A DNA stretch of 64,000 nucleotides. It comes from Desulfobulbaceae bacterium (GTDB lineage: Bacteria; Desulfobacterota; Desulfobulbia; Desulfobulbales; Desulfocapsaceae). The notes beneath the pieces are model-generated. The model did not search any database. It was not told the DNA's origin and saw only the letters and a list, made by a program, of their open reading frames with translations. The DNA lies in assembly GCA_008933635.1 (NCBI GenBank), contig WBUQ01000003.1:1-64000 (forward strand). Reading direction: 5' to 3'. The position numbers were made by a program, and so were the translations under genes. Shown piece by piece: positions 21,411-31,711 of the stretch (position 1 is its first letter; each line of letters opens with the position of its first letter).

Positions 21411-21782
21411 TCATCCGCAGACGCTTCGGATAGCCTCGGCCAGCACGGCGAGGTCAGGCAGAGGCTTGTGGAAGACAGCCCCTGGATCAACCCCGATGTC
21501 GCTGAGCGCTGCCGGGGGATGGTAGTCCGTCGAACCGGTATGGATGATAAAACGGAGGGACGGTTGCAGCCGATGCGCCCTGACGATGGTCTCGTTTCCG
21601 TCCATGCCGGGCAATCGCATATCGACAATGGCTGCGTCAACTTTCGTGCGCTGCAGGATTTCCAGGCCCTCCTCTCCTGACGTGGCCCCGATCACGTCGA
21701 AATCCTCATCTTCCAGAAAGGCGCTCAGGCTCTTCAGCAGACTGATTTCGTCATCGATGATCAGTACCCTGAAGGCCGGCAT
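21411..21782 (-). CDS. Single-domain response regulator at the end of the motAB run
   Basis: 123-residue receiver: acidic D10-D11, phospho-Asp D54 in IVDMRLPGMDG, Thr in IHTGST and Lys in FHKPL. ATG 21782 has a GGGGAGGAAG site; a longer frame reaching into motB has no family-like sequence. It follows motB on the same strand by 80 bases, so it may be co-expressed and could act on the motor or on another output. There is no output domain. The GSTDYHP segment after the Thr is unlike CheY, so I do not call it CheY. Confidence 0.85.
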   Translation of the reverse strand: MPAFRVLIIDDEISLLKSLSAFLEDEDFDVIGATSGEEGLEILQRTKVDAAIVDMRLPGMDGNETIVRAHRLQPSLRFIIHTGSTDYHPPAALSDIGVDPGAVFHKPLPDLAVLAEAIRSVCG

Positions 21783-21862
21783 GGTCCGCTTCCTCCCCGC
21801 CGTATCCTGACTGTCATAAACATCCCTGCCAATTTTGCTTTTGCGGCTGGATCTGCCAGCCG

Positions 21863-22792
21863 TCACTCCTCCGCTCTCGGGCCACTGGTCGGTTCTCCCT
21901 GTTCGCCGATCGCCGAGAGGATGACAATGTCGACACGCCGGTTTTTCTGCCGGCCTTCCGGGGTGCTGTTGTCGGCAATAGGCCGGTACTCCCCGTAGCC
22001 GATGGCAGAGAGCTTCTCCGGGGCGAAGGCGTGGGTTCCGATCAGATACTGGACAAGGTTGGTGGCCCTGGCCGTCGAAAGTTCCCAGTTGGAAGGGAAG
22101 GAGGGCGTCCTGATCGGGACGTTGTCGGTATGCCCCTCTATGCGGATGGCGTTGGTGTAGTCGTCGATCGCGGCGGCGATATCCTTGAGCAGCGGTTTCG
22201 ATTCCGCCCTGACCGTGGCGCTGCCGGAATCGAAGAATTCCGTGTCCTTGAGGCTGATGACGAGCCCCCGCGAATCGACCGTCAGCTTGACTTTCTGTTC
22301 GGCCCCACGCTCTTCGAGAAAGGCAGTGATCTTTTCCTTGATCTGCCGGAATTCTTTGCTGTCAGCCTTTGTTTTGGCAGCATCTTTCTTCGGGTCGGGC
22401 GGGGGGATGTCCTTGGCGGGATCCTCCAGCTGGTCCTGCTGCTCTTGACCGGCATCCTTCTTTTCGCCGGTTTTCTGTTTCTCTTCCTCCTTTTTTCCCA
22501 GTTCTCCCGCCTCAGGGACAGTCATCCTTCTCCGTTTTTCCGGGACAATGCCCGGTACCGGCATGATCTCGTTCGACTGGATGACATTGAAGGCGGGCGA
22601 GGAACTGCTTTTCGTCATGCCGAATGCGGCGTTGTAGGAGGCGATAACCTGCTCGACCTTCTGCTTGTCGACGTAGGACATGGCATAGAGGGTCACGAAA
22701 ACGGCAAAGAGCAGGGTGATGAAATCGGCGTAGGAAACCAACCAGCGTTCATGGTTCGGTTCCTTTTCGTGTTCCTGCTTTCTTTTGGCCAT
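21863..22792 (-). CDS. motB: Flagellar motor stator protein MotB
   Basis: 309 residues. One N-terminal membrane helix carries the proton-conducting Asp (D23 in SYADFITLL). A long charged linker of about 65 residues, rich in Lys, Glu and Gln (residues about 85-150), leads to an OmpA-like peptidoglycan-binding domain with FFDSGSATVR, IEGHTDNVPI and GYGEYRPIADNSTPEGRQKNRRV. It pairs with MotA to form the stator ring; motA lies 2 bases upstream. The extended linker is longer than in E. coli and may be the plug or tether region. Confidence 0.93.
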   Translation of the reverse strand: MAKRKQEHEKEPNHERWLVSYADFITLLFAVFVTLYAMSYVDKQKVEQVIASYNAAFGMTKSSSSPAFNVIQSNEIMPVPGIVPEKRRRMTVPEAGELGKKEEEKQKTGEKKDAGQEQQDQLEDPAKDIPPPDPKKDAAKTKADSKEFRQIKEKITAFLEERGAEQKVKLTVDSRGLVISLKDTEFFDSGSATVRAESKPLLKDIAAAIDDYTNAIRIEGHTDNVPIRTPSFPSNWELSTARATNLVQYLIGTHAFAPEKLSAIGYGEYRPIADNSTPEGRQKNRRVDIVILSAIGEQGEPTSGPRAEE

Positions 22793-23617: not shown

Positions 23618-23839
23618 TCATTTCCCGTCCTGCGGAAGCAGGGACTGATACCCTGCACGCCGCATGACCTCGGCGCTGAATTCGATGATCTTTTCCCTGA
23701 TCACTTCCCCCGATTCGAGCACAATATACCTGTTGCCGTTGCTGAGGGTGATGCAGGTGTCGGGAGACTCCTCGATAATCTCTATCAGCGTATGGTTCAG
23801 CAGACATTCGTGGCCGTTCATCTTTGTCAGCTTGATCAT
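23618..23839 (-). CDS. flbD: Flagellar FlbD-family protein
   Basis: 73 residues from ATG 23839, starting MIKLTKMNGHECLLN as in the FlbD family of small proteins encoded next to motA. LIEIIEESPDTCITLSNG and YIVLESGEVIREKI fill the short beta-rich domain. The biochemical role of this short family is not established (it is distinct from the Caulobacter sigma-54 regulator of the same name). The upstream in-frame extension is not family-like. It is 52 bases before motA and likely heads the flbD-motA-motB operon. Confidence 0.88.
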   Translation of the reverse strand: MIKLTKMNGHECLLNHTLIEIIEESPDTCITLSNGNRYIVLESGEVIREKIIEFSAEVMRRAGYQSLLPQDGK

Positions 23840-24181
23840 GGGCAGGGGACTGGACAGGGCGTTCCTTGGTCCGGGCAGAAGAATGGAGTAGAGGCCTTTG
23901 GCCGATAACGTTTTCAGTTTAGCGTGGAAGTCGGCCCCAGGCAAGAAATTTTAGCTACTTATCTCCACCGCGGGCGAGGACCGGCGACGATTCTGCAGCC
24001 AGAGATCTTCCACTGCCGGCACTGCGGGGGGAAGAGCAGGAAAATTTCGGGAAATATTCCGGCAAACTGGTACAATACAACAGAAAACCTTGTAATCAGC
24101 CGGTCCGCTGTCCTCCCTTGCGAATGTGTCCGGCCGGCTCAGTGCAGGGGCCCATCCGCCACTCTGACGACAGGAACGACC
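23840..24181. other. Divergent intergenic region between flbD and DUF6909-like gene
   Basis: About 340 bases between outward-facing genes. It contains an exact sigma-28-type -10 box on the plus strand at 23901-23908. A TACAAT at 24071-24076 resembles a -10, but no -35 aligns with it. No gene is supported here; in-frame extensions of the flanking genes into it look non-coding. Confidence 0.5.
23882..23908 (+). promoter_or_regulatory. Possible FliA (sigma-28) promoter
   Basis: GCCGATAA at 23901-23908 matches the sigma-28 -10 consensus at all eight positions. The -35 window with an 11-base spacer (23882-23889, AATGGAGT) matches TAAAGTTT poorly. On the plus strand it would transcribe the DUF6909-like/kinase operon with a long leader of about 270 bases. 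The exact -10 beside a motor operon is suggestive but not proof. Confidence 0.3.
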
Positions 24182-25885
24182 ATGCAGGAGCTTTCGAAAT
24201 CACAGAAGGCGAGAAACGCCATTCGCACCTTCAAGACCCTCGCCGACGCCCTCACCATCCAGGGGGTGTACAAACCTTCAGGCAAGGCCGGAGAAAAGCT
24301 GGCCGAGGCCATGAAAATGTTCAGTCCGGAGATCTATGGCTCCATGCCCGATCCGCGGATCGTCGAGCTCAAGGGACTGGAGTACGTCATCGACCGGATG
24401 CCGCGGGGCATCGAGAAATGCAACCGGCTCATTCTCACCGCCCAGGAGGATTTCCAGGACACCTCGTTCGAAGAGATCATCCCGCTGAAGAGGCGCCGGG
24501 TCTCCTACGCGGTGTCGGAGAAGGAGATGTGCTTCGTCATCACCCATGGCCAGAGCGAGATCTATGATATCCTGACCCACATCACCTTCCTCACCATCGA
24601 ATCGCAGAAGATCTACCAGCAGATCTGCAACCGGGTTGACGGGACCAGCACCGAGTGGGTCGAGCTGGAGCGGATCACCAGGATGGAGTCCGACCTCAAG
24701 GGCGAGGAACTCGATCAGGCGATTTGGAACCTGTCGATCATCCTCGGCCGGACGTACCGGGAGACGAGGAGCACCTACGAATACCTCGAGGAGAACCGGC
24801 GACTGCACCACTCCAACAACGGCCTGTTCAACATCGTCCACTCCCTCGGCAGGCGGATGATCGAGGAACAGGTCTCGGAGAAGGAGGAGCTGACGATCTA
24901 CTTCACCCCATCCCTCCATGACATGATCGGCCACCACAAGTATGCCTCCCTGTGGGCCGACTCGATCAAGGAGCGGCTCTATGGGCTTGGTTTCCAGGAC
25001 AGGCCCGTCCACGTGATCAGCGCCAACATGCATTCGGTGCGCAATATCATCTACGGATCGGGTATGCTGGTCGAAAGAGGGGAAACGATTCCAGACGACC
25101 TCTATGACATGGTCCGCCAGCTGCGCAGCCAGGGCAGGAAGATCAGTGAATACGCGGAGAAGCACGGATACATTTTTCACAAGGACACCTCGGGATCGAA
25201 TATCGATGTCAATATCGTCGATACCGCCCGGATCGATTTCGCCACCCTCCACCCCGCCCTCCGTTTCAACGTCCACCTGATCAAGGAGCAGCAGCCCGTT
25301 CTGCTGGTGATGGATTACGCCTTCGGCACCCAGGCCTTCGAACTAATGGACGAACTGCTCTGCCCCTGCCAGATCCAGGACAAGGTCATCGCCTTCAGCA
25401 TCGAGTCGATTTCGATCATGGGCAAGGCTGGGATCCTCCCCGGCAAGAAGGGCGACATCATGCTGGCGACGGCCCATGTGATGGAGGGGACGCCGCACAA
25501 CTATATCGTCAACAACGACCTCGCCGTCAACGACTTCGATCCCGGCGTCAACGTCTACTGCGGCCCGATGGTCACCGTTCTCGGCACCTCGCTGCAGAAC
25601 CGCGATGTCCTCGAGCGGTTCCATTCGTCGAGCTGGAAGGCGATCGGGCTGGAAATGGAGGGAGGGCACTACCAGCGAGCGATCAGTGCCGCCATCATCC
25701 AGGGCCACATCCCGATGAACATGAAGACCCGCTATGCCTATTACGCCTCTGACAATCCGCTGGTGAGCGGCCAGACCCTGGCTTCCGGTCCGATGGGTGA
25801 AGAGGGCGTGGTGCCGACCTACATGATCACCAAGGTCATCCTGCAGAAGATCCTCAACTACCAGGACGAGACACCAGGCCGATGA
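24182..25885 (+). CDS. DUF6909-like protein with nucleoside-phosphorylase-like C-terminus
   Basis: 567 residues from ATG 24182 (MQELSKSQKARNAIRTFKTL). I recognise it as resembling the DUF6909 family; no experimental role is known to me. There are no signal peptide, membrane helices or common ATPase motifs. The C-terminal part has KGDIMLATAHVMEGTPHNYI, YCGPMVTVLGTS, and GLEMEGG (about residues 489-495) followed by YYASDNPL, an arrangement reminiscent of PNP/UDP nucleoside phosphorylases, whose EME-type motif binds ribose. Its stop overlaps the next start (ATGA), tying it to a membrane histidine kinase. A nucleotide-related signalling role is speculative. Confidence 0.6.
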   Translation: MQELSKSQKARNAIRTFKTLADALTIQGVYKPSGKAGEKLAEAMKMFSPEIYGSMPDPRIVELKGLEYVIDRMPRGIEKCNRLILTAQEDFQDTSFEEIIPLKRRRVSYAVSEKEMCFVITHGQSEIYDILTHITFLTIESQKIYQQICNRVDGTSTEWVELERITRMESDLKGEELDQAIWNLSIILGRTYRETRSTYEYLEENRRLHHSNNGLFNIVHSLGRRMIEEQVSEKEELTIYFTPSLHDMIGHHKYASLWADSIKERLYGLGFQDRPVHVISANMHSVRNIIYGSGMLVERGETIPDDLYDMVRQLRSQGRKISEYAEKHGYIFHKDTSGSNIDVNIVDTARIDFATLHPALRFNVHLIKEQQPVLLVMDYAFGTQAFELMDELLCPCQIQDKVIAFSIESISIMGKAGILPGKKGDIMLATAHVMEGTPHNYIVNNDLAVNDFDPGVNVYCGPMVTVLGTSLQNRDVLERFHSSSWKAIGLEMEGGHYQRAISAAIIQGHIPMNMKTRYAYYASDNPLVSGQTLASGPMGEEGVVPTYMITKVILQKILNYQDETPGR

Positions 25886-27714
25886 AACTTCGTCTCGTCA
25901 ACGTCTCGCCCTGGATACTGGCCGCCGCATGTTCACTGCTGGCCGTTATCATCGCTGTCTTCGCCGTCAACAACTATCGCCGCGAGAAGCAGCTGATGAC
26001 CGAGGTGCTGCTGCAGAAGGGCGTCACCATCATCCGGTTCGTCAATGCCGGGCCGCGCATCAGGTTCCGCACCAATGCCGAATCCTATGCCGCGATGGAG
26101 CTGCAGTGGAGGGAGCAGGTGCAGCAGATCCTCGACCACGCCGCAGAACAGCCAGACATCCATATGGCGATGATGGTCGACAGGAGCGGCAAGATCCTGG
26201 CCTGCTCCGACAGCGGCCATGCCGGGCAGATGGTCGAGCGGGAGACCGCTGCGTTTTTCAGGACCCTGGAAAACGAACATGCCGGCAATGTCGCGTACCG
26301 GATAGGCAGAGAGGCGAGGGGCAACGGCAGCGTCTTCCAGGCCGCAGCCTACTATGCGCCCCTGGGTCCGAGGGAGCTGGCAGAGGGCGGGCTGTCGCCG
26401 ATGATGCAGCATATGCGACGCGGAAACGGGCCCATGCGGGACCATATGATGCAGATGCAGCAGGGTTTCCAGCGATGGCGGGAGCTGGCCGCAAAGGTGC
26501 AGGGGGCCAGGTATGTTCTGCTGGTCGAGCTGGAAATCGATCAGTACAACGCCGCCGTCAAACGACAGCTGCTGCAGATTGTCATCCTCTCCATCGTCCT
26601 GCTGCTGGTCGGCATCGGCGGCTGGCTGTCTCTCCTCACCCTGCAGGGATACAGAGGATCCCAGGTGAGTCTGAGACGGATGCGGGCCTTCAACGATCTT
26701 CTGGTCTCCTCGCTGCCGCTCGGGCTGGTCGCCACCGACAGCGAAGGCAAGATCCAGATCTGCAACAGGACAGCGGAAGAAATTCTGGCGAGCCCTGAGA
26801 AGGACCTGGCAGGTAAACGGCCAGGAGAGATCCTGCCGCCGCCGCTTGCCGAGCTGATCGCCCAGTCGGAGGCGCAACCCGAACGTCCACGGAAACAGGA
26901 ACTGGTTCTCGAGCAGGAGACCGGGCGCCCCAGATCGCTGCTGCTTGCCGCACTGGCGGTGCTCGATGGGGAGAATCGCCATGTCGGCACGATGCTGCTG
27001 ATGCAGGATGTTAGCGAGGTGAAGCAGCTCGAGGAAGAGCTGAAGCGCAACGAGCGACTGGCGGCCCTGGGTGAAATGGCGGCAGGCGTGGCGCATGAGC
27101 TGCGGAATCCGCTCAGCTCGATCAAGGGGCTGGCGGTATTGCTGAAGTCCCGTTTCAGTGAAGGCGGGTCAGACCGTGAAGCCGCCGATATCCTGGTGCG
27201 CGAGGTGGAGCGGCTCAACCGCAGCATCAGCGAACTGCTCGATTACGCCAGACCAGACCGGCTGGTCAAGGAAATGGTCTCGCTCAATGATGTGCTGCGG
27301 AAGGCGATCACACTCATCCGGGTCGATGCCGATGCCGCAGGGGTCGTGATCGAGACGGACCTCTGCCCGCCACCGGATCTGGTCCATGCCGATCAGGACA
27401 AGCTCAGCCAGGTCTTTCTCAACCTCCTGCTCAACGCCATTCAGGCCATGAATGGCGGCGGCAGCCTGAAAATCACCACCCGGACCGGCCAGGGCCAGCT
27501 GTCATGCCGGGTCGAGGACAGCGGCTGCGGCATCGCGGCGGATCTGCTGCCGAAGGTCTTCGATCCCTACATGACCACCAAGAGCGGCGGCACCGGGCTT
27601 GGTCTGGCGATGTCGGTGAAGATCATCGAGGAGCACGGGGGGCGCATCGATATCAGCAGCACGGCCGGGCAGGGGACGACCGTAGTGGTGACATTGCCAG
27701 CGGGGCAGCCATGA
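25882..27714 (+). CDS. Membrane sensor histidine kinase, ZraS-like, with PAS domain
   Basis: 610 residues. A first membrane helix (about 10-29), a periplasmic sensor of about 195 residues, a second helix (about 227-249, IVILSIVLLLVGIGGWLSLL), a PAS domain (about 270-375), HisKA with phospho-His H405 (GVAHELRNPLSSIKGL), and HATPase (NLLLNAIQAM, EDSGCGI, GGTGLGLAMS). The sensor holds a Met/His-rich stretch (SPMMQHMRRGNGPM, then DHMMQMQ) that could bind metal. No partner regulator is adjacent; instead it overlaps a DUF6909-like gene and a glycosyltransferase by four bases on each side. Confidence 0.9.
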   Translation: MKLRLVNVSPWILAAACSLLAVIIAVFAVNNYRREKQLMTEVLLQKGVTIIRFVNAGPRIRFRTNAESYAAMELQWREQVQQILDHAAEQPDIHMAMMVDRSGKILACSDSGHAGQMVERETAAFFRTLENEHAGNVAYRIGREARGNGSVFQAAAYYAPLGPRELAEGGLSPMMQHMRRGNGPMRDHMMQMQQGFQRWRELAAKVQGARYVLLVELEIDQYNAAVKRQLLQIVILSIVLLLVGIGGWLSLLTLQGYRGSQVSLRRMRAFNDLLVSSLPLGLVATDSEGKIQICNRTAEEILASPEKDLAGKRPGEILPPPLAELIAQSEAQPERPRKQELVLEQETGRPRSLLLAALAVLDGENRHVGTMLLMQDVSEVKQLEEELKRNERLAALGEMAAGVAHELRNPLSSIKGLAVLLKSRFSEGGSDREAADILVREVERLNRSISELLDYARPDRLVKEMVSLNDVLRKAITLIRVDADAAGVVIETDLCPPPDLVHADQDKLSQVFLNLLLNAIQAMNGGGSLKITTRTGQGQLSCRVEDSGCGIAADLLPKVFDPYMTTKSGGTGLGLAMSVKIIEEHGGRIDISSTAGQGTTVVVTLPAGQP

Positions 27715-28790
27715 GGCGGTGGCAGCCGGTTGACGGAGGGTTCCCCGGAACAGACGGAAACCGAGGCAAGCATACCTTGCGGATCGTCCAGTTCATGGCC
27801 TCCGAAGGCTACGGCGGAGCGGAGAAGGTCTTCATCGAACTGTCGAATGCCCTGGCGGCAGAGTATGAGGTCATCGCCCTGCTGCTCCGCAACGCCATCA
27901 TCAGTGGCAGATTTTCGCCGCAGGTCAGGCAGGTCGTGCTGCACTCCAACCCGACCAGCAACAACCCCTTGCTCCACCTCGAACTTTATTCCCGTTTAAA
28001 GGAGCTCGCTCCCGATCTCATCCATACCCATGCGGCCAAAGGGACGACCCTGGTCGCCAGGGTCAACCGGCTGCTCGGTTTGCCCCATCTCGGCACCAAG
28101 CATAACGATCGCAGGGGCCGGATATTCAACCATCTCCGCTGGGTCAGCGCGGTTTCGGAGAAGTCGGCGCGATCGGTGGTCGCTGCCAGAGGGGCGGAAG
28201 TACGGGTCATCCACAACGGGGTCGCCGCTGAAGACCCCGGTCCGGAAGAGAAAGACAAAGCCTTTACCATCGTTGCGGTCGGCCGCCTGGATGCGATCAA
28301 GGGCTTCGATATCCTGATCGACCAGGTTGCGGCGCTGCCCTTCGACTTCAGGCTGAAAATTATCGGCGAGGGGCCGGAGAAGGCCCGTCTCGAACAGCAG
28401 ATCAGGAACAGGAAGCTGTCGGAAAAGGTCGTCCTCGAAGGCTTTCGCGACGATATTCCCCGCCTTATGCGCAGGGCACACCTTGTTGTCATCTCCTCGC
28501 ACCAGGAAGGGGGGCCGAAGGTGATGATCGAATCCCTCTTCCATGCCGACATGCTGATCGCCACCCCCGTGGGGGCAGTGCCCGAGGTGCTGCCGGATAG
28601 GTTCCAGGCCAGGCAGGAGGAACTGGCGGCAAAGATCTCCCAGGTCTATTTCGAATATGACCGGTACCGGGAGGACTTCGCAGCGGTCGCCGCAAAAAGA
28701 CGTCCTGATTTCTCCCTGCCGGAGATAGTCGAAAAATACCGGGACTTCTACCGCCACATTCTGGGGCAGAAAGGTCAGTCCGGCGGGTGA
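27711..28790 (+). CDS. Glycosyltransferase family 4 protein
   Basis: 359 residues, starting within the kinase stop (ATGA overlap). The N-terminal Rossmann fold has FMASEGYGGAEKV, and the C-terminal one has IVAVGRLDAIKGFDILI, IIGEGPEKARLEQQI and SSHQEGGPKVMIESL, a GT-B fold with the E-x7-E type donor site (EGGPKVMIE). It should add a sugar from a nucleotide sugar to a surface glycan or LPS core. It is convergent with, and overlaps by 16 bases, an O-antigen ligase. The exact acceptor and sugar cannot be told. Confidence 0.88.
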   Translation: MRRWQPVDGGFPGTDGNRGKHTLRIVQFMASEGYGGAEKVFIELSNALAAEYEVIALLLRNAIISGRFSPQVRQVVLHSNPTSNNPLLHLELYSRLKELAPDLIHTHAAKGTTLVARVNRLLGLPHLGTKHNDRRGRIFNHLRWVSAVSEKSARSVVAARGAEVRVIHNGVAAEDPGPEEKDKAFTIVAVGRLDAIKGFDILIDQVAALPFDFRLKIIGEGPEKARLEQQIRNRKLSEKVVLEGFRDDIPRLMRRAHLVVISSHQEGGPKVMIESLFHADMLIATPVGAVPEVLPDRFQARQEELAAKISQVYFEYDRYREDFAAVAAKRRPDFSLPEIVEKYRDFYRHILGQKGQSGG

Positions 28791-29959
28791 TCCTGCGGCG
28801 GGGAGGCGAGGAGCAGGGCCGAGAGGAAGGCGAAGAAGTGGCCCTGGTGGGAATCGAAGAGAAAGGAATTCATCAGGCAGCCGGCAGCCATTGTCAGCAC
28901 GATGCCCTGCATGACAAACCTGCGATGCCGTTTCAGCCGCGAAGCGGAGAGCCACTGGCTGACCAGCAGCGCCACGAACAGCGCAAGGCCGGACAGGCCG
29001 AGCTGGACGCCGATGAACAGGTATTCGTTGTGCGGATTGTCGGTGGGCATGGTATCGCTGCCTTCGATCAGTTCCTGCTGCCTGAAGGCGAAGGAACCGG
29101 TGCCGTGGCCGAAGACGGGGCGTTCCCGGATCAGGTCGATGCTGTTGCCCCACCAGTCCAGCCGCATGCCCAGCGATGAACGGGACGCCCCCGGTTCATA
29201 ATGGATGATATCCTGCAGCGCCTGCTGGACACGCGAGGAGATGTTGCCCGAGACGGTGAAGCCGGCCGGGATCGCGAGCAGGAGGATGAGGCAGCCGGCG
29301 AGCCTGTTCCGCAGGCTGAGACGCTGCAGGATGGCAAAGCCGATCAGCACGGTATAGGCGAAGAGGCCGGTTCGTCCGGGCGAGACAAAGACGATGTTGG
29401 CGGTGGCGAGCAGAAAAACGACACACCAGGCAATCCGGTAGCGGCGATGGTCGATCGCCCGCTGGAAGGCCCAGAACGCCAGCATGGCCATGAAAAAACT
29501 GTGGGTGATGTGGAAAAGCAGCGAGTTGCCGTACTTGGCTGATGGGATCAGCGAGAAGTGCATGCCGAAGGAGATCAGCATCAGGATCGCGGTGCCGGCC
29601 AGGAAACCGTTTTCCGCCCGGCCTATCAGCACCTCGTCGTCCCAGGCGAATGACATGACCAGCGGCAGGATGAGCAGCTCACGGTATTTCATCAGCACCG
29701 ACAGGGATCTCTCCGATGCCGCAGGCGAATAGAGGACAGCGGCGGCGAAGTAAACAAAGAGCAGAGTGGCGAGGATGGCCACGGGATGGCGGCGCAGCAG
29801 CCGGCCCAGGATCCTTGCCCTTCCGGAACCGAACCAGAACAGGAGGACGAAGGCGGAGCTGATATCCATCAGCGCCGTGGAGAGCGGTATCCAGAAACAG
29901 GTGGCGATGATCGCGTAGCCGCCACACCGCCGGCTTATGGTCTGTATCCGGTCAATCAT
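28775..29959 (-). CDS. O-antigen ligase (WaaL/Wzy-C family)
   Basis: 394 residues with about ten to twelve membrane helices. The large periplasmic loop before the last helices holds DLIRERPVFGHGTGSF and DNPHNEYLFIGVQLG, the Wzy_C motif with the functionally important His. It joins undecaprenyl-linked O-polysaccharide to lipid A core, or polymerises it. It lies 24 bases after msbA on the same strand, a natural pairing of LPS export and assembly. Polymerase and ligase members of this family cannot be separated by sequence alone. Confidence 0.85.
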   Translation of the reverse strand: MIDRIQTISRRCGGYAIIATCFWIPLSTALMDISSAFVLLFWFGSGRARILGRLLRRHPVAILATLLFVYFAAAVLYSPAASERSLSVLMKYRELLILPLVMSFAWDDEVLIGRAENGFLAGTAILMLISFGMHFSLIPSAKYGNSLLFHITHSFFMAMLAFWAFQRAIDHRRYRIAWCVVFLLATANIVFVSPGRTGLFAYTVLIGFAILQRLSLRNRLAGCLILLLAIPAGFTVSGNISSRVQQALQDIIHYEPGASRSSLGMRLDWWGNSIDLIRERPVFGHGTGSFAFRQQELIEGSDTMPTDNPHNEYLFIGVQLGLSGLALFVALLVSQWLSASRLKRHRRFVMQGIVLTMAAGCLMNSFLFDSHQGHFFAFLSALLLASPPQDHPPD

Positions 29960-29983
29960 GTCTGCTGGTCTTCCGTCCCGCCT

Positions 29984-31711
29984 TTAGCGGTACTGCATGT
30001 TGTAGAGCAGTTCATATTCCTGGCCGAGCGCCAGGAGCTCCTCGTGGGTGCCTTCCTCGACGATGGCGCCATCCTTGACCACGATGATCCGGTCGGCATT
30101 GATGATGGTCGACAGTCTATGGGCGATCACGAAGGTGGTCTTTCCCTTCATCAGATTCTCCAGAGCTTTCTGCACCTCCCTCTCCGATTCGGTGTCAAGT
30201 GCCGAGGTCGCCTCGTCGAGGATCAGGATCGGGGCGTTCTTGAGGATCGCCCGGGCGATGGATACCCTCTGCCGCTCGCCGCCGGAAAGCCTCGCCCCGC
30301 CCTCGCCGATCACCGTGTCGAAGCCCTGGGGCAGGTTCCTGATGAAATCGAGGGCATGGGCGGCTTCGGCAGCGCGGATCAAGTCCTCTTCGCTGCACTC
30401 GAGGTCGCCGTAGGCGATGTTGTTGCGGACGGTGTCGTTGAACAGGATGGTCTGCTGGGTGACCATCGCGATCTGGCTGCGCAGCGACTGCAGGGTGACG
30501 TCGCGGATGTCGTTGCCGTCGATCAAAATCGCCCCGACCTCGAGATCGAGGAAGCGGGGGATCAGGTTGGTCAGCGTCGTCTTGCCGCCGCCGCTCGGGC
30601 CGACGATGGCCAGCGCCTGGCCGGCCGGGACGGTCAGCTTGATCCGGCGCAGCACCGGTTCCTCTTCGTTGTAGCGGAAGGTCACGTCCCTGAACTCGAT
30701 GGTCTCTTTGAAAGGCGGCAGCGGAATCGCCCCGGTTTTGTCGGCAATGGCCGGCGTGATATCGAGCAGGGCGAAGACCCGGGTGGCGGCGGCCATGCCC
30801 TGCTGGATCACGGAGTTGATCCGGCTGACGCCCTTGACCGGTTCGTAGGCGGCGATCAGGGCGGTGAGGAAGGCGAAGAAGGTGCCGGGGGTGGCCCCGC
30901 CGTGGATGACCTCGTTGCCACCGAACCAGATGATCAGGGCGATGGCGACGCCGCCGATGAACTCCATCAGCGGATGCTGCATGCTGCGGAAGCGGGCGTC
31001 CTGGATGATGACGGCGAAGAGGGTGCCGATCTGGTCGCGGAAGCGGCGGCCTTCATATTCCTCGCGGCCGAAGGCCTTGACGATGCGGTTGCCGGTGATG
31101 GTCTCGTAGAGGATGTTGGTGAGGTGGGCGGTCTCCTCCTGGGTCTTGGTGCTCAGCTTCCTGAAGATCCGTCCGAATTTGACGATCGGGTAGCCGGCGA
31201 TCGGCAGGATGATGAACGAGAACATCGCCAGCTTCCAGTTCATGTGAAAGACCACGCCCAGCAGGATGATGACCTGGAAGAAATCGCGCAGGGTACCGAC
31301 CAGGGCATTCGAGACCGCCTGCTGCATCAGGGTGATGTCGGACATGATCCGCGAGATCAGGGTACCGGTGGGCATGTCGTGGAAAAACGACAGCGGCTGG
31401 CGGTGGATGTGTTCGAAGACCGCCGTCCGCAGGTCGCGGATGACCGACTGGCCGACCTTCTCCAGCAGGAAATAGTAGGTGTAGTAGAAGCTGCTCTTCA
31501 AGAAGAAGATCAGGACGATGATCAGCGGCAGGACGTTGAGGAAGAAGACGTTCTTCTCCATGAAGATCTTGTCGAGCAGATCCTTGACCAGGTAGGCCTG
31601 GGAGCCGGTCAGACCCGCCACCAGCACCATCGCCACCATGGCGATGAACAGCCGTGACTGGTAGGGGCGGATGACCGCATAGATTCTGAAGAGGATTTCC
31701 TTGTTTGTCAT
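29984..31711 (-). CDS. msbA: Lipid A export ABC transporter MsbA
   Basis: 575 residues, the normal length for a half-transporter that flips lipid A-core across the inner membrane. Six membrane helices in the first 310 residues, then an ATPase: Walker A GPSGGGKTT (near 370), Q loop VTQQTILFN, signature LSGGERQRVSIARAI, Walker B ILILDEATSALD and H loop IAHRLST. The membrane domain segment DMPTGTLISRIMSD is typical of MsbA. It heads a minus-strand pair with the O-antigen ligase and is divergent from rlmH. Confidence 0.92.
   Translation of the reverse strand: MTNKEILFRIYAVIRPYQSRLFIAMVAMVLVAGLTGSQAYLVKDLLDKIFMEKNVFFLNVLPLIIVLIFFLKSSFYYTYYFLLEKVGQSVIRDLRTAVFEHIHRQPLSFFHDMPTGTLISRIMSDITLMQQAVSNALVGTLRDFFQVIILLGVVFHMNWKLAMFSFIILPIAGYPIVKFGRIFRKLSTKTQEETAHLTNILYETITGNRIVKAFGREEYEGRRFRDQIGTLFAVIIQDARFRSMQHPLMEFIGGVAIALIIWFGGNEVIHGGATPGTFFAFLTALIAAYEPVKGVSRINSVIQQGMAAATRVFALLDITPAIADKTGAIPLPPFKETIEFRDVTFRYNEEEPVLRRIKLTVPAGQALAIVGPSGGGKTTLTNLIPRFLDLEVGAILIDGNDIRDVTLQSLRSQIAMVTQQTILFNDTVRNNIAYGDLECSEEDLIRAAEAAHALDFIRNLPQGFDTVIGEGGARLSGGERQRVSIARAILKNAPILILDEATSALDTESEREVQKALENLMKGKTTFVIAHRLSTIINADRIIVVKDGAIVEEGTHEELLALGQEYELLYNMQYR

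Follow-up and report, generated by a model that had tools for sequence, protein, structure and literature searches.

The described enzymes that come closest to the DUF6909 protein analysed here are the long AMP nucleosidases (Amn; TIGR01717; E. coli b1982; PDB 1T8S/1T8R/2GUW; Klebsiella 7UWQ), which likewise join an extra N-terminal domain to a nucleoside phosphorylase-I (NP-I) domain, share the EME/DME and SD-P-L motifs and are of comparable length (484 versus 567 aa). They differ in that the N-terminal domains give no significant alignment and that the phosphate contacts R381/K436 of Amn correspond by alignment register to Q472/T532 in DUF6909. Base and sugar are held in Klebsiella Amn by N205, W383, M404, E405 and D428, and the phosphate by R381 and K436 together with H188/Y189 from the neighbouring chain (PMC9584410). 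The short AMN-like nucleosidases (TIGR01721; Bacteroides 1YBF) are strongly alike to DUF6909 in their GK-x-GG...EGT..NY and SD-x-PL motifs, but they are ~260 aa long, have no N-terminal domain and keep the R-x-W plus K phosphate site. E. coli DeoD and uridine phosphorylase have the fold (Z ~18) and the catalytic Glu/Asp positions in common with DUF6909, although at 10-15% identity; DUF6909 shows no visible GDPxR-type phosphate motif and carries an extra 250-residue N-terminal domain. On the signalling side, the ZraS/HydH and AtoS kinases (NF007688, NF008468) have the same build as the histidine kinase of the present locus, namely a TM-sensor-TM arrangement, PAS, a HisKA domain with HELRNP, HATPase and a Met/His-rich sensor stretch. 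The latter kinase differs from them in scoring below the family cut-offs, in having no NtrC-type regulator adjoining it and in its position behind DUF6909.

The window, by which we mean the whole 64,000-nt stretch of contig WBUQ01000003.1 that was analysed (GCA_008933635.1, Desulfobulbaceae bacterium), belongs to a genome whose closest public relatives are Desulfoprunum, with 87% identity in DUF6909 to D. benzoelyticum DSM 28570. The first of three joined genes encodes a protein matching PF21850 in two stretches (209.9 bits, E 7e-62; curated Pfam cut-off 27 bits), the second a protein with PAS, HisKA and HATPase domains and the third one with GT4 domains (Pfam). The initial annotation had described the three as coupled by ATGA overlaps and the kinase as lacking a partner regulator, and this description is borne out: both overlaps are present (25882-25885 between DUF6909 and kinase, 27711-27714 between kinase and glycosyltransferase), and no response regulator adjoins the kinase on the same strand, either here or in the family members examined.

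Features of the window that bear on the DUF6909 locus
Feature	Position	Strand	Basis or remark
Single-domain response regulator	21411-21866	-	receiver domain only (Pfam); far end of the flbD-motA-motB minus-strand row
GCCGATAA 8-mer, claimed sigma-28 -10 box	23901-23908	+	281 bp before the DUF6909 ATG
DUF6909 (PF21850) protein, 567 aa, starts ATG, MQELSKSQ...	24182-25885	+	Pfam, AlphaFold, Foldseek, VIA-align
N-x-H-S motif (N282, H284, S285, N288)	25025-25045	+	invariant in 64 homologues; putative counterpart of Amn FTN(205)Y
G-K-A-G...G-D motif (G414-D425)	25421-25456	+	hhalign register; GHCGG...GD of Amn / GKCGG of AMN-like
GLEMEGG motif (M492, E493 = ribose/base-binding pair of NP-I enzymes)	25646-25666	+	aligned with Amn DMES
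YAYYASDNPL motif (D524 = catalytic Asp of NP-I enzymes)	25733-25762	+	aligned with Amn SDKPL
Membrane histidine kinase, ZraS/HydH type, 610 aa	25882-27714	+	Pfam, NCBIfam, 21-member alignment
GT4-type glycosyltransferase, 359 aa	27711-28790	+	Pfam; relatives within genus alone
Wzy-type O-antigen ligase and MsbA-like ABC transporter	28775-31711	-	convergent to the GT4 gene

The chance is, in our estimate, slightly better than even that DUF6909 is an NP-I nucleosidase, with AMP as the leading candidate substrate, that it is co-expressed in Desulfocapsaceae with an orphan ZraS-type kinase, and that the glycosyltransferase gene lies next to them as a member of an LPS cluster. Under this reading DUF6909 would be an uncharacterised NP-I subfamily that presumably splits a purine nucleotide or nucleoside at its N-glycosidic bond and may adjust the adenylate or purine pool. 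In Desulfocapsaceae its gene would stand first in a conserved two-gene operon with an envelope-facing ZraS-type kinase whose response regulator would be encoded elsewhere, and the two proteins would be made together to serve one shared physiological response. An uncharacterised family found in ~15% of sampled Bacteroidota genomes and in nearly all Desulfocapsaceae would thereby gain a testable enzymatic role. If AMP is the substrate, the family would join Amn as a second line of long AMP nucleosidases, found in bacteria that turn AMP over in the course of their sulfur metabolism. With the kinase fixed behind DUF6909 in one family, a connection between envelope sensing and the nucleotide pool can be tested directly.

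The assignment of the fold rests on a predicted structure. The AlphaFold model of DUF6909 (pLDDT 87.6, pTM 0.85, from an alignment of 17 homologues) divides into a helical part with a small beta-sheet (residues 1-252) and a nucleoside phosphorylase-I fold (residues 253-562). NP-I enzymes were the sole matches among the 50 listed by Foldseek (best E 2.5e-7; 309 matches at E <=0.001), and superposition of residues 253-562 by VIA-align gave Z 18.6-17.5 and rmsd 2.6-3.8 over 204-238 residues with NP-I enzymes, the best being Z 18.6 at rmsd 2.7 over 213 residues. PNP, UP and AMP nucleosidase all figure among the Foldseek and VIA-align matches, the AMP nucleosidase structures 2guw and 1t8r at Z 18.0 and 17.7. 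Profile comparisons, an independent line, agree though they are fainter: PF21850 hits a 246-aa nucleoside-phosphorylase-like frame in another genome (E 4.9e-4), PF01048 is weakly matched by 3 of 17 DUF6909 members (best E 0.012), and hhalign aligns DUF6909 with AMN-like profiles at P 0.005 and a probability of 6-7% (P 0.4 in a reversed control), with GK/H-x-G, EGT..NY, EME/DME and SDNPL/SDKPL in register. Given so low an hhalign probability, it is the fold evidence that carries the NP-I claim. Judged by the model, the C-terminal domain is rightly placed in the nucleoside phosphorylase-I (PNP/MTAN/AMP nucleosidase) fold, and the earlier remark that the C-terminus recalls nucleoside phosphorylases is upheld, as GLEMEGG and YYASDNPL lie inside the 253-562 domain (Z ~18). 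The N-terminal ~250 residues, although confidently predicted by AlphaFold, have no solved relative detectable by Foldseek or VIA-align (nothing above Z 3.6). A sequence search of the PDB with DUF6909 gave no match, and a literature search found no paper naming it.

Residues of the catalytic type are kept. N282, H284, S285, E491, M492, E493, S523, D524 and P526, as well as G414, K415, G421, D425 and R104/R106, are invariant in 64 DUF6909 proteins drawn from Desulfobacterota and Bacteroidota. The equivalence of N282 with Amn N205 was set by motif order and by eye, as the local alignment stops short of it. With the fold predicted and the catalytic residues retained, the proposal of the initial annotation that the first protein might bind nucleotides appears sound. 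This conservation makes NP-I nucleosidase chemistry likely, with AMP as a hypothetical substrate. Compared motif by motif, DUF6909 looks most like an AMP nucleosidase; the hhalign register nevertheless places Q472, R/K474 and T532 opposite Amn R381, W383 and K436, and a Trp at the W383 position occurs only in a distant DUF6909 subfamily (L088-L090). Since two phosphate-binding residues of Amn are not kept, DUF6909 is best regarded as a separate subfamily, and with Q472/T532 in place of R381/K436 a 5'-phosphate on the substrate is not secured. The N-terminal domains of DUF6909 and Amn give no significant hhalign alignment (P 0.73-0.83); a likeness noted by eye, an R..Y/F hairpin followed by a long helix, fell below significance. 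TIGR01717 has no match anywhere in the window's genome. Strong AMN-like matches were absent from genomes with DUF6909, but as the overlap expected in the phylum sample was below one, this does not amount to mutual exclusion of the two. No adenine phosphoribosyltransferase (apt) gene turned up in the window's 96%-complete genome, which thus shows no sign of adenine salvage; about half of the family has the gene, with no pattern.

Neighbouring genes place DUF6909 in several metabolic settings. It adjoins fructose-bisphosphate aldolase and pyruvate kinase in L058 and L095, 6-phosphofructokinase and pyruvate kinase (the latter judged by its sequence start) in L060, and follows shortly after phosphoglycerate mutase in four f1 loci (cluster C24; L033, L044, L046, L047). 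The glycogen gene glgB lies near it in ten loci (cluster C6), a formate-THF ligase gene follows it in L062, a purine nucleoside phosphorylase gene is nearby in L098, and in all three g76 genomes it comes directly after a PF00860 purine-type permease. The distant subfamily L088-L090, itself a full-length match to the Pfam profile, stands directly behind such a permease. Among the Bacteroidota (L148-L167), a GH3-family gene lies one or two genes upstream of DUF6909 in 10 of 20 loci, often with a 320-360 aa protein next (no Pfam match in the one member tested) and mostly with sugar-nucleotide genes thereafter, including GDP-mannose dehydratase-type ones; glutamine synthetase genes also occur among the Bacteroidota neighbours. 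Outside Desulfocapsaceae, DUF6909 has beside it genes of glycolysis or glycogen metabolism, a purine permease gene or genes for surface polysaccharide. These settings fit adenylate or sugar-phosphate metabolism, but as they vary by lineage the context singles out no substrate or reaction. The longest listed frame with a DUF6909 homologue is a Bacteroidota one of 897 aa (G464:C1:1571033-1572700).

The distribution of the kinase is far narrower than that of DUF6909. DUF6909 occurs in 21 of 25 genomes of family group f1 of the relatives, which we infer to be Desulfocapsaceae, and three of the four genomes without it are 70-87% complete; it is missing from all 13 genomes sampled in the order's other families. 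Of 296 genomes sampled across the phylum, 12 have it above cut-off, the window's genome counted, as do 43 of 296 sampled Bacteroidota genomes (~15%). In each of the 21 Desulfocapsaceae genomes with DUF6909 a homologous kinase gene comes next on that strand (two of these kinase loci end at contig ends, with the kinase start visible), usually at a gap of -34 to +19 bp and once of 139 bp, so that an overlap of precisely ATGA is largely peculiar to the window's genome. Outside the family 40 DUF6909 loci were surveyed: 10 from named MAGs and isolates (Desulfobacterales, Syntrophobacteraceae, Saprospiraceae, Flavobacteriia), 10 from the phylum-wide sample and 20 from Bacteroidota. None has an adjacent same-strand kinase; one (L097) has a convergent kinase. 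The pair is thus a lineage-specific operon, and DUF6909 at large works without the kinase. Of the signalling unit that the initial annotation proposed, the DUF6909-kinase pair stands within one family; as a general unit it falls to the neighbourhood survey for linked kinases that was set as its refuting test. Of the three joined genes, only this pair is conserved.

The kinase has two TM segments, a periplasmic sensor with a Met/His-rich insertion, PAS, HisKA (H405) and HATPase_c. Its best NCBIfam match is ZraS (326.4 bits, under the equivalog cut-off of 479 bits), and with H405, N514, N518 and the G boxes invariant in an alignment of 21 kinases it is apparently active. Around residues 165-190 the periplasmic Met/His-rich stretch MMQHMRRGNGPMRDHMMQM differs between species and is reminiscent of metal-binding sensors. 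Close relatives of the receiver-only gene of the window are found immediately upstream of DUF6909, in divergent orientation, in at least three other genomes: L049 (5511-5855), L052/L036 (L052: 7326-7544, where only the C-terminal half matches) and L054 (7382-7759). This recurrence makes the receiver-only protein a candidate partner of the orphan kinase, as a lead only.

Sequence likeness makes AMP the likeliest substrate of the putative enzyme. APS reductase makes or uses AMP in sulfate reducers and sulfur disproportionators, and this turnover would, speculatively, give a reason for an AMP-cleaving enzyme in such bacteria. Rather unlikely is a nucleosidase or phosphorylase with this fold that acts on something other than AMP, be it a nucleoside (unphosphorylated, modified or deoxy) or a different nucleotide. 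Such a substrate would suit the replacement of two of the Amn residues that contact the AMP phosphate, as well as the fact that the solved structures nearest by Foldseek include uridine and purine nucleoside phosphorylases no less than Amn. Against it, SD-x-P-L and GK-x-G...EGT..NY match Amn and the AMN-like enzymes but are not shared by the window genome's own two NP-I paralogues, which read SNM and SDEL, and the glycolysis and glycogen neighbours suit AMP, an allosteric effector of both pathways.

An NP-I-fold protein that lacks catalytic activity or serves as a sensor, binding a nucleotide and informing the kinase as in the signalling unit of the initial annotation, would account for a pair kept throughout one family (21 of 21 genomes), and the long unmatched N-terminal domain could carry the regulation; it is nonetheless improbable, as E493 and D524, invariant in 64 proteins, would be superfluous for a pure sensor, and as none of the 40 outside loci has the adjacent same-strand kinase. 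Distinctly improbable too is a novel type of regulator that hydrolyses a nucleotide: its NP-I domain would read or clear AMP, while the unmatched N-terminal domain would control that domain or connect it with the kinase of the same operon, linking envelope signals and energy charge. We regard as very improbable indeed a unit of all three genes in which kinase and DUF6909 control surface glycan through the glycosyltransferase. The ATGA overlap between kinase and glycosyltransferase speaks for it, but the latter has relatives only within the window's genus, convergent genes directly follow the kinase elsewhere in the family, and the glycosyltransferase adjoins the Wzy-type ligase and MsbA genes, as LPS genes would. 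The glycosyltransferase was accordingly rejected as a member of the unit and probably belongs to the downstream LPS/O-antigen cluster.

The earlier suggestion that the unit controls or senses surface glycan is thus not sustained, nor is that of an exact sigma-28 -10 box upstream. The 8-mer GCCGATAA is indeed present, but its two matches in the window compare with 1.28 expected (34 of 100 shuffles reach two), the -35 position reads AATG instead of TAAA, and the 8-mer is absent upstream of DUF6909 in three other species of the genus; the promoter was rejected on these grounds.

Two minor observations concern other genes of the window's genome. A futalosine hydrolase-like NP-I gene (SNM for SD) lies directly before an MqnD-like gene (G000:C150, L168), and menaquinone is probably made there by the futalosine route. 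The FlbD reading frame (23618-23944, minus strand), which adjoins motA and motB, is too long as listed from a TTG at 23944; FlbD homology and a MIKLTKMNG start suggest translation from about 23839.
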